In this document: one piece after another, positions 38,223 to 45,085 of the stretch
Layout: every line of letters begins with the position of its first letter
How positions within the stretch are numbered: the first letter of the stretch is position 1
Virus record (IMG/VR): IMGVR_UViG_3300043122_000072
Span: 1-47,283 of that record
Length of the DNA stretch: 47,283 nt
Strand: one strand, 5' to 3'
Origin: a virus
Notes under the pieces: generated by a model
What the model saw: the letters and a program-made list of their open reading frames with translations, nothing else
Database searches by the model: none
What the model was told of the DNA's origin: nothing
Made by a program: the position numbers and the translations under genes

Positions 38223-38299
38223 GGCCTCGTAGTTCAATTGGTTAGAACTGGCTGTTCATAACAGTCGTGTTGGCGGTTCAAGTCCGCCCGAGGCTACCA
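38223..38299 (+). tRNA. tRNA-Met (CAT) or tRNA-Ile2 (CAT)
   Basis: A full 77-nt cloverleaf: acceptor GGCCTCG with CGAGGCT (one G-U pair), D-arm GTTC/GAAC with GG in the loop, anticodon stem GGCTG/CAGTC with loop TTCATAA, T-arm GGCGG/CCGCC with TTCAAGT, and encoded ACCA end. The CAT anticodon reads AUG, or AUA if the host lysidine synthase modifies it. The gene is encoded on the early transcript, between the Acb2-like gene and the helicase. Confidence 0.93.
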
Positions 38300-42867: not shown

Positions 42868-43096
42868 CGTCGGGAGCCTGCTGGAAGAGGCGGTACAGAC
42901 TGGCCGCCTCGACGGCATCACGATCTACCCGTCGCAGAACTGGGGCTGGCAGGTTTCAATCAAACAAAAAGGCAGCGAAGGCTACGTGTGCAACATGGGC
43001 CCGGACCTCGTCACGCTGCTGGCGGAAAGCCTTGCGTCTTTTAATCGGGGGCGTGCAAGCAAAACCCCCGCAGAGGAAGAGGATATTTTCGGATGA
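42860..43096 (+). CDS. Small protein (78 aa) with EEDIFG tail
   Basis: No ATG fits; the conserved-looking part begins at TTG 42860 (TDVGSLLEEAVQTGRLDGIT), which overlaps the GapR-like stop and has GAGAG upstream. The longer frame from 42692 is only a shadow of that gene. IYPSQNWGWQVSIKQKGSEG and MGPDLVTLLAESLASFNRG give a small beta-alpha protein, followed by a short linker and the acidic EEEDIFG tip shared with replication proteins. Function unknown. Confidence 0.65.
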   Translation: MTDVGSLLEEAVQTGRLDGITIYPSQNWGWQVSIKQKGSEGYVCNMGPDLVTLLAESLASFNRGRASKTPAEEEDIFG

Positions 43097-43530
43097 GATC
43101 GCGAGATAGTAAAGGCCGGTTTCTCCCGAATTACCTCGTAGACACGTTCGATCCGCGCGGCTGGCCGGAGCCTTTACCCTACAACCAGCTATGTATCGAT
43201 TACCGCGCGGGCATCAACTGCATTCTCGATTACAACGATTATATATGGGCGGTTCATTGGTGTTGGCAGTCAGTGCCGAACAGCCGGAAAAATAAGTTAT
43301 ACGTGGTTCGGTCCACTAGCGTGAACGGGCGTAAGCGCTCGCTATATCTCCACAAGATAATACTGGAGCGCGCGGGACAAGAACCACCCAGCGCCAAGCA
43401 TATTATAGGCGATCACATTAACGGCGACAGCCTTGATAACCGCCGCTGCAATCTGCGCTGGGCCACGCCATCCGAGAACGCCAGAAATAGAAACGGGAGC
43501 TGGTATCGTCAATTCCAGCTTGAACTGTAG
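43093..43530 (+). CDS. HNH homing-type endonuclease
   Basis: A 145-residue protein in an ATGA overlap. CIDYRAGINCILDYNDYIWA, LYVVRSTSVNGRKRSLYLHK, then HIIGDHINGDSLDNRRCNLR and WATPSENARNRNG show the HNH_3-type core (DH-NGD-N-R) with downstream DNA-binding segment. It can cut DNA and may act as a selfish homing nuclease. It sits right beside the methyltransferase gene, whose overlapping frame carries another HNH module. Confidence 0.87.
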   Translation: MRSRDSKGRFLPNYLVDTFDPRGWPEPLPYNQLCIDYRAGINCILDYNDYIWAVHWCWQSVPNSRKNKLYVVRSTSVNGRKRSLYLHKIILERAGQEPPSAKHIIGDHINGDSLDNRRCNLRWATPSENARNRNGSWYRQFQLEL

Positions 43531-43540
43531 GTTTTGACGC

Positions 43541-45085
43541 ATGACAGCCTTATACAACGAAATTGACCCTTACGCCGCGCAGTGGCTTCGCAATCTTATT
43601 GCCGCCGGCCATATCGCGCCGGGCGATGTCACAGAAAAGGATATTCGCGATGTCAGACCAAGCGACCTCGAAGGGTACACCCAAGTCCACTTCTTCGCCG
43701 GTATCGGCGTCTGGAGCCATGCGCTCAGACTTGCCGGATGGCCCGACGACCGGCCCGTCTGGACGGGCTCCTGCCCGTGCCAACCTTTCAGCGCGGCAGG
43801 CCGAAGAGGCGGGGTTGCTGACGAGCGGCACCTATGGCCCCACTGGTTCCACCTCATTGGCCAGTGCCAACCTGCAAGCGTCTTTGGCGAGCAAGTTGCA
43901 AGCAAAGACGGCCTTGGGTGGCTCGACATTGTACAAGCTGACATGGAAGGAGCGGGTTACGCCTTTGGGGCGGCAGATTTGTGCGTTGCGGGCTTCGGTG
44001 GTCCGCACATCCGGCAGCGACTGTTCTTTGGCGCGAGCCGGGTGGAACACGCCAGCGACGACGGATCACAAGGGCGGGCGTATCAGGGACGGCAAGCTAT
44101 CGACGGACCGGCTGGATGTGACGGCGCAATTAGCGGGGTGGCCGACCCCGACCAGCAACAATTCGACAGGGCCCGGTGTATCGGGACGGGAAGGCGGGAT
44201 GAACCTTCAAACTGCGGTGCAGTTGAGCGGATGGAACACGCCGGCAGCGAGCGACGGGAACGGAGGGAAACGACCGCACCCCGACACCAGCATGACGGGG
44301 AAACATCCGTCCGGTCGAAAAGTCAATATGGGTCTGGCCAGTCAAGCGCATATCGGGTTTCTCAAGACGCAGCCTATCCGACTGACGGCTTCTGGCGAGA
44401 TGCTGACTGGCTCGGATGCCGCGATGGGAAGTTCCGGCCAGTTAGACCCGGCTCATTCCCGCTGGTTAACGGGGCTGCCCCAAGAATGGGATGTATGTGC
44501 GCCTGCTGTGGCATGGAAACTCGGCGGCAAGGCGTTGACGTGCTTACACTGCGGGAGGGACTACTCGGGCACGAAAGACGCATCGCGGAAGAAATTCTGC
44601 GACAAGGAGTGCTATCGGTTGTACCGCCTTACGCAGCCACTGACGAACAAAAGTACGGGGCACTATCGGGCGCGGGCGGCAACGCTAGCGACGACGTGTT
44701 CGATGTGCGGCACGAAGAAAAACCTTCACGTACATCACATAGATCGCAACGTGCTGAACGACGCGGCGGAAAATTTGCAGGTTCTGTGCGCGGAATGCCA
44801 CCGAGCGGAGCATGCGACGCCACCCCCAACGTCGAGCTGCGCGGTATGCGGTACGGAATTTACGGCGAAGTCACACAGGAACCGGAACAAGATTTGTTCT
44901 GCCCGTTGTGCCAGCGAGTGGGGGCGCATTTCTGCGAGGAAGAGATGGCAGGCGACAGGGCCGGACGCTTGCGCGCCTACGGCAACGCGATCAGCCCGTG
45001 GCCCGCGAAAGCCTTCATCGAAAGCTTCGACGACGCCTGCCGAGGACATTTTCAGCTAGACGCCGAAGAGGACATTTTCTCATGA
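43541..45085 (+). CDS. DNA cytosine-5 methyltransferase, interrupted by in-frame insert
   Basis: A 514-residue protein. Motif I FFAGIGVWSHALRLAGW (about 51-67), motif IV PCQPFSAAGRRGG (Cys80), motif VI FGEQVASKDG (Glu117), motif VIII PHIRQRLFFGAS, target-recognition part with GFWRDADWLGCRDGKFRPVR, and motif X RLRAYGNAISPWPAKAFI (about 476-493) mark a C5 methyltransferase, probably protecting phage DNA from host restriction. Between ...NGAAPRMG and RLRAYGN, which are contiguous in relatives as I remember them, lies a 158-residue Arg/Gly-rich stretch that is the shadow of an HNH module in the overlapping frame. It ends AEEDIFS. Confidence 0.88.
   Translation: MTALYNEIDPYAAQWLRNLIAAGHIAPGDVTEKDIRDVRPSDLEGYTQVHFFAGIGVWSHALRLAGWPDDRPVWTGSCPCQPFSAAGRRGGVADERHLWPHWFHLIGQCQPASVFGEQVASKDGLGWLDIVQADMEGAGYAFGAADLCVAGFGGPHIRQRLFFGASRVEHASDDGSQGRAYQGRQAIDGPAGCDGAISGVADPDQQQFDRARCIGTGRRDEPSNCGAVERMEHAGSERRERRETTAPRHQHDGETSVRSKSQYGSGQSSAYRVSQDAAYPTDGFWRDADWLGCRDGKFRPVRPGSFPLVNGAAPRMGCMCACCGMETRRQGVDVLTLREGLLGHERRIAEEILRQGVLSVVPPYAATDEQKYGALSGAGGNASDDVFDVRHEEKPSRTSHRSQRAERRGGKFAGSVRGMPPSGACDATPNVELRGMRYGIYGEVTQEPEQDLFCPLCQRVGAHFCEEEMAGDRAGRLRAYGNAISPWPAKAFIESFDDACRGHFQLDAEEDIFS
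43650..45059 (+). CDS. Overprinted protein in +1 frame of the methyltransferase, with HNH module
   Basis: A 469-residue frame inside the methyltransferase gene, with ATG 43650 nine bases after AAAAGG. SDLPDGPTTGPSGRAPARAN, TSGTYGPTGSTSLASANLQA, LYKLTWKERVTPLGRQICAL, repeated GWPTPT/GWNTPAASDGN units and LDPAHSRWLTGLPQEWDVCA recur, to my knowledge, in phage proteins overlapping methyltransferases. In addition residues 286-443 form a zinc-finger and HNH module (CLHCGRDYSG, CSMCGTKKNLHVHHIDRNVL, LCAECHRAEH, CAVCGTEFTA). It ends TTPAEDIFS, the same tail as the other frame but from a separate copy of the coding DNA. Confidence 0.65.
   Translation: MSDQATSKGTPKSTSSPVSASGAMRSDLPDGPTTGPSGRAPARANLSARQAEEAGLLTSGTYGPTGSTSLASANLQASLASKLQAKTALGGSTLYKLTWKERVTPLGRQICALRASVVRTSGSDCSLARAGWNTPATTDHKGGRIRDGKLSTDRLDVTAQLAGWPTPTSNNSTGPGVSGREGGMNLQTAVQLSGWNTPAASDGNGGKRPHPDTSMTGKHPSGRKVNMGLASQAHIGFLKTQPIRLTASGEMLTGSDAAMGSSGQLDPAHSRWLTGLPQEWDVCAPAVAWKLGGKALTCLHCGRDYSGTKDASRKKFCDKECYRLYRLTQPLTNKSTGHYRARAATLATTCSMCGTKKNLHVHHIDRNVLNDAAENLQVLCAECHRAEHATPPPTSSCAVCGTEFTAKSHRNRNKICSARCASEWGRISARKRWQATGPDACAPTATRSARGPRKPSSKASTTPAEDIFS
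44505..44978 (+). mobile_element. HNH-coding insert (474 bp) in both overlapping frames
   Basis: The insert is flanked by similar sequence (TGTGCGCCT before, TGCGCGCCT after), both coding for Cys-Ala-Pro in the second frame. It is a multiple of three, leaves both frames open and consists almost wholly of the HNH/zinc-finger module. It is too short for a group I intron with its own nuclease gene and lacks intein ends. Confidence 0.6.
45032..45079 (+). repeat. Duplicated tail-coding sequence, one copy per frame
   Basis: GAGGACATTTTC occurs at 45042-45053 and 45068-45079, each preceded by GACGCC and a few bases. The 26-bp offset places the first copy in the overprinted frame and the second in the methyltransferase frame; both read Glu-Asp-Ile-Phe before a stop. 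Confidence 0.9.

Follow-up and report, generated by a model that had tools for sequence, protein, structure and literature searches.

An out-of-frame HNH endonuclease module in a doubly coding viral C5 methyltransferase gene, with evidence of selection for an open host frame

We analysed the whole 47,283-base stretch of an IMG/VR virus record (hereafter the window), in which a small C5 cytosine methyltransferase (MTase) gene carries a 474-bp insert that encodes an HNH nuclease in a second reading frame. We consider it likely, with a probability of roughly 0.8, that this insert is a homing-type HNH module that is copied through the cutting of empty alleles and that the MTase is translated straight through it. 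Comparison of sequences shows two open frames, an empty site, selection on both the HNH and the host frames and a patchy distribution; the cutting, the homing, the MTase activity and the route by which the HNH protein is translated are inferred. The features of the window on which the argument draws are as follows.

43093-43530, + strand: free-standing HNH_3 gene directly upstream of the MTase, a neighbour outside the insert (PF13392, 1.2e-8)
43541-45085, + strand: interrupted C5 cytosine MTase gene, 514 aa including the insert (PF00145, 6.4e-10; phrog_363, 5e-73)
43653-45059, + strand: overprinted +1 frame, phrog_1008-like (phrog_1008, 3.8e-35), with a conserved ATG at 43653 and no stop through the HNH insert
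44489-44504, + strand: left target copy, GGATGTATGTGCGCCT, 12/16 identical to the right copy, in register, and matching the empty-site consensus
44505-44978, + strand: inserted module, 474 bp, absent from empty relatives; equivalent ends range from 44489-44962 to 44505-44978
44535-45059, + strand: HNH reading frame with no ATG in frame; candidate starts are TTG 44535, GTG 44508 or a fusion with the overprint
44541-44612, + strand: first zinc-finger-like Cys pairs, CLHC...CDKEC, the cysteines being invariant in nine homologues
44697-44816, + strand: HNH nuclease core, VHHIDRNVLND...NLQVLCAECHRAEH, in the +1 frame (PF01844, 1.2e-6), with its catalytic positions intact
44838-44909, + strand: second zinc-finger-like Cys pairs, CAVC...CSARC, from the Cys pattern and the alignment
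44963-44978, + strand: right target copy, GGACGCTTGCGCGCCT, which enters motif X (RLRAYGNAI)

The hallmarks of C5 MTases, namely the catalytic and cofactor motifs, the PC dipeptide and motif X, are all present in the window gene, whose product is by these motifs a putative C5 cytosine MTase. The motifs FAGIG, SCPCQPFS, GEQV, HIRQR and YGNAI are kept across 43 aligned MTase relatives, six other occupied ones among them, and the catalytic motifs and motif X are intact in the occupied alleles. The relatives further indicate that the host gene was already doubly coding before the insert arrived. No stop interrupts the overprinted +1 frame in 73 of 78 MTase relatives, compared, for an open frame, with an expectation of 6% under synonymous shuffling of the MTase codons, and the +2 frame is open in none of the 78. 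Substitutions between close relative pairs number 1017, 440 and 892 at MTase codon positions 1, 2 and 3, respectively, which is not the pattern of a single-frame gene. The overprint ATG is kept in 58 of 70 relatives (only 41% of the Asp codons of these genes are GAT), and a GGAG/AAGGA-like sequence lies upstream of it. In the window the open +1 frame spans 43563-45059 (498 aa). PHROGs has one family for each frame, phrog_363 and phrog_1008, both labelled 'DNA methyltransferase'; one of the two labels was probably carried over from the other frame. A literature search on the overprinted MTase frame returned nothing pertinent.

The original prediction placed an HNH insert at 44505-44978, interrupting the MTase between its target-recognition region and motif X, and the reading frames, the PF01844 match and the empty relatives all agree with this placement. 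The 474 bp correspond to 158 codons, across which the MTase frame and the +1 frame are both open and the third frame has several stops. When the insert is deleted in silico both frames are rejoined as had been foreseen, giving EWDVCAP|TATRSARG and, equivalently, NGAAPRMG|RLRAYGNAI. Uninterrupted relatives, expected to be continuous at this point, are so: about 70 have the empty site PL..GA..RVG|RLRAYGNAI with a fixed 5-aa spacing, and every insert-free MTase relative that we retrieved is contiguous there, so that the clear empty site on which the prediction hinged is found in all of them. A few of these relatives, two IMG/VR loci and three Klebsiella phages (L085, L086, L087, L064 and L072; Klebsiella phages and prophage-like contigs), carry a 16-aa insertion, RVEPGVARVASSNRV, at the same site, so this spot tolerates extra residues; the insertion is perhaps what an excised module left behind. 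Where the overprint match of Klebsiella phages apparently entered an HNH, a full reading showed no HNH, only the 16-aa insertion. We also dropped the idea that the insertion site is the most conserved DNA of the gene, as it is well conserved but ranks 56 of 586 windows. At L020:5127-5220, about 1.5 kb 3' of an intact MTase, the motif X / overprint C-terminus occurs a second time.

Alignment with uninterrupted MTases, which had been proposed as a way to fix the boundaries, located the site; the ends themselves float by up to 16 bp because the flanks form an imperfect 16-bp repeat (GGATGTATGTGCGCCT/GGACGCTTGCGCGCCT). This repeat corresponds to the matching Cys-Ala-Pro flanks noted originally. 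In an unrestricted flank search of the window it was not significant (P = 0.69), so the precise insertion mechanism is not readable from the flanks, and the repeat matters because its position coincides exactly with the empty site. At the peptide level none of 500 shuffles matched the target as well as the left flank does, and the left copy lies at the position of the original site and has since drifted. A flank copy at the peptide level was also found in L189, L208, L209 and L216 and, more weakly, in L002, while a DNA flank repeat was looked for in L011 and not seen there.

The insert had been described as almost only HNH and zinc fingers, a description that the PF01844 match with Cys pairs on both sides bears out. 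The positions V-H-H-D-N-N-N-L-C-C-H are invariant in the alignment of the HNH core. Identity between the inserts of the window and L002 is 0.67, 0.70 and 0.41 at HNH codon positions 1, 2 and 3, which points to the HNH as the protein that selection keeps; the MTase-frame peptide of the insert looks like filler needing only openness. The HNH frame of the window has no stop inside the insert. Given that it has neither an ATG, nor a preceding stop, nor a good ribosome site, the nuclease is probably made either from a TTG or GTG codon, for which the aligned ATG starts of relatives are the guide, or as an addition to the C-terminus of the overprinted protein. We examined 23 other HNH genes nested in MTases, of which 19 have an in-frame stop no more than 4 codons 5' of an ATG, and Shine-Dalgarno-like matches of MTase-nested HNH genes average 4.1 nt compared with 2.8 nt in shuffles. 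The claim that the module closes neither frame stands for the window but fails in eight of the nine other occupied family members examined, where an overprint stop lies 0-2 codons before the HNH start. As this stop ends the overprinted ORF in overprinted hosts, termination-reinitiation would be possible there.

Evidence for read-through comes from the host frame itself. In our openness test the HNH protein and its codon usage were held fixed, synonymous codons were shuffled and the chance of an open host frame was determined. This chance was P = 0.0022 for the window insert alone, P = 0.00075 for the window HNH ORF with its tail, and, for the eight other cases in the first round of tests, from 0.0017 down to less than 5e-5. 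For HNH relatives in MTase genes the host frame was open in 23 of 23 regions, with 0 stops versus 158 expected, whereas for HNH relatives elsewhere it was open in 1 of 57, with 537 stops versus 563 expected. In intein hosts it was open in 12 of 15. Part of the 23-region set was recognised by its open frame, so an independent count matters: in a set picked solely by MTase sequence upstream, 22 of 24 were open, all 22 with the HNH in +1. In the two exceptions (L193 and L131) the upstream MTase match is in a different frame, which closes before the HNH end. Although these counts are over related sequences and hence are not independent trials, the contrast between MTase-hosted regions and those elsewhere appears too large for accident, and the lack of stops in the former, set against their near-expected number elsewhere, indicates selection for reading through the host frame. 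To our knowledge, selection for an open host frame has had no statistical support before this.

These counts also bear on whether the MTase is simply dead, with an HNH pasted into it and an open frame that is an accident of G+C-rich sequence. The window insert does have a G+C content of 60%, and P for the window alone is only 0.002. However, the same openness is seen in hosts of 31-35% G+C, for instance a staphylococcal phage (L090) and L095, it holds in all 23 MTase-hosted regions, and the catalytic motifs and motif X are kept. We disfavour such an accident and rate it the least probable of the explanations weighed here.

A host frame selected to stay open argues for read-through translation rather than hidden splicing, and our searches for splicing elements were negative. 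Rfam at gathering level returned only a tRNA across the whole window, in which a tRNA gene lies at 38223-38296, and gave no match around the insert up to E 5. No intron was found in six relatives (Rfam, lenient threshold), the conserved RNA core of a group I or II intron was not found, and RNA folding was no better than that of shuffles (z 0.5). In the MTase frame Pfam detected no Hint/intein domain, and only PF00145 matched. The Rfam, fold and Hint searches are thus in line with the earlier statement that the insert has no intron or intein core. The segment could in principle be an unrecognised self-splicing intron or a bypassed element like that of T4 gene 60, with the MTase made without it; a flank repeat and an HNH cargo are typical of mobile introns, and motif X is conserved 3' of the segment. 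Neither an intron nor a bypass needs an open host frame, yet the frame is open in every MTase-hosted region without a single one of the 158 stops expected. Given this, together with the negative intron searches at a lenient threshold in the window and six relatives and the unremarkable fold, we consider removal of the segment very unlikely.

Besides the window, occupied members of the same MTase family were found in L002 and L011 and, through a scan with nine HNH proteins, in L186, L189, L208, L209, L215, L216, L217 and L240. L002 has at the same site an HNH about 60% identical to that of the window, and L011 has a different HNH module there. The scan also found modules in different C5 MTases. 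In the AT-rich Staphylococcus phage CUB-EPI_14, gp45 contains an HNH with a GGAGGAG ribosome site and an ATG within a C5 MTase, and the site is empty in its relative IME-SA4. Pfam confirmed a C5 MTase in 10 of the 10 hosts submitted, and a profile scan of genome contigs with the HNH alignment revealed none clearly inside an MTase. On a tree of the MTase core, built with the insert left out, the occupied alleles imply eight changes, counted without a direction of gain or loss, of which at least five are forced by supported branches. A single clade of occupied MTases was rejected (p-AU 2.9e-8), as was a sister relationship of the window and L002 (p-AU 0.017) despite the roughly 60% identity of their inserts. 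This scatter fits what homing predicts. The occupied MTases are on long branches, which may reflect sampling or relaxed selection. As the closest HNH relative of the window is only about 60% identical, no recent transfer has been caught in the act. The empty sites, the other modules at the site, the conserved overprint and the scattered alleles are all consistent with the original picture of a mobile module, putatively a homing one, in a doubly coding target.

It is also conceivable that the HNH and the MTase are a nested restriction-modification or defence pair rather than a homing element and its host. About 22 distinct cases sit in C5 MTases, and the HNH profile weakly resembles 5-methylcytosine-specific McrA-type nucleases (6ghc, E 0.075), although this PDB match is too weak to count. 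The presence of the HNH is, however, patchy among otherwise intact MTases. In addition, HNH proteins of this family also lie out of frame within terminase and DNA polymerase inteins, a setting in which a partnership with methylation would be pointless. We regard such a pair as highly improbable.

The intein cases include nine loci (L098, L101, L102, L125, L200, L219, L229, L238 and L253) with HNH ORFs out of frame inside inteins of the terminase large subunit and DNA polymerase A. In these the host frame with its Intein_splicing/Hint domains stays open and the endonuclease is in +1, so that the splicing and nuclease functions are split between two frames. At L188:533-5257 an HNH ORF was observed in +1 within an open DNA polymerase III alpha subunit frame. 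Pfam found no intein domain there, so the locus may be a further example without splicing, in a gene of the essential type; taken singly, its openness falls short of significance (P 0.06). L138 (Mycobacterium phage DotProduct gp64) has a LAGLIDADG frame (YVAGLIDGEG) in +1 inside a DNA methylase whose frame is open, which is the same trick with another endonuclease family. Within the window's own MTase family, L089 (EBPR siphovirus 2 gp44) is interrupted at the catalytic PC|Q site by what looks like an ordinary intein (CFPAGALVLT...VVHN|CQP). A broader generalisation is possible, although we hold it tentatively and would stop short of calling it probable: that these are dual-coding homing modules in C5 MTases and inteins alike, with the HNH almost always in +1 and the host frame selected as stop-free filler, and that the window would thereby obtain two proteins, an MTase with filler and an overprint-HNH fusion, from 1.5 kb. 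If this is true, C5 MTases hold the module without splicing, and in inteins splicing and nuclease use separate frames.

Several known systems share part of this arrangement. Among T4-like free-standing homing endonucleases, including the mobA / gene 60 bypass cassette, an endonuclease gene likewise splits a conserved phage gene without abolishing synthesis of its product, but there the host is split or bypassed, whereas the host frame of the window is open and would be read through. Inteins and group I introns with homing endonucleases also place a mobile endonuclease inside a conserved gene; in the window, by contrast, no splicing apparatus was detected at the protein or RNA level. The homing endonuclease insertions of fungal mitochondrial rps3 resemble the window in having an endonuclease in a gene and a duplicated piece of the host 3' part, which in rps3 restores the host end. 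Their endonucleases are LAGLIDADG proteins in frame with or downstream of the host, unlike the out-of-frame HNH described here.

The idea itself has already been published. A 2025 paper (PMC11855218) reported HNH domains inserted out of frame into mycobacteriophage methylases under the name 'ShiLan domain', an arrangement first noted in PMC9957025. The insertion in Pacc40 gp60 is another out-of-frame HNH insertion in a phage DNA methylase (PMC11855218; PMC9957025), and Applejack has a related out-of-frame methylase insertion (PMC12613952). Like the window insert, the ShiLan domain has an HNH with flanking zinc fingers in the other frame of a phage methylase, a stop-free host frame, no intron or intein core, empty homologues, a scattered distribution and an insert 5' end that resembles the sequence after the site. 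In ShiLan, too, an HNH gene lies directly upstream of the interrupted methylase, as does the HNH_3 gene at 43093-43530 in the window. However, the ShiLan gp65 record is a DPPY-type methylase with the HNH in +2, whereas in the window a C5 MTase carries the HNH in +1. Within the ShiLan insert the HNH frame ends at a stop of its own, whereas that of the window runs on into the second frame of a host that is, unlike ShiLan, itself doubly coding. Similarity between the two HNH proteins is weak (hhalign probability 37%, 38 columns) and suggests that they are at best distantly alike. What the window adds is thus a C5 host, the +1 frame, another HNH lineage and a doubly coding host.

We propose that a mobile HNH module invaded the MTase gene just where motif X begins, with its nuclease read in the +1 frame of the host. 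The module could persist in a gene that offers no route for its removal because the other frame is kept free of stops. The ribosome would then read the MTase, about 158 extra residues and motif X as a single 514-aa chain, with the extra residues falling where length variation seems to be tolerated. In co-infection, the conserved 'RLRAYGN' DNA of empty alleles is the presumed target of the endonuclease, and repair of the resulting break would copy the module into the cut allele. In relatives the HNH has an ATG of its own, often behind a Shine-Dalgarno-like sequence.

Nuclease insertions of the mycobacteriophage type are thus a wider phenomenon that takes in the C5 MTases of many viral contigs, a staphylococcal phage and inteins, and a host frame under selection for openness offers a test that earlier work did not have. 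Several members have a Shine-Dalgarno-led ATG, so leaderless initiation, as suggested for the mycobacteriophages, need not be assumed in general. An MTase with an annotated length of 500-600 aa may conceal a second gene, and the entry of a third coding unit into a two-frame gene gives a rare example from nature of how far coding density can go.
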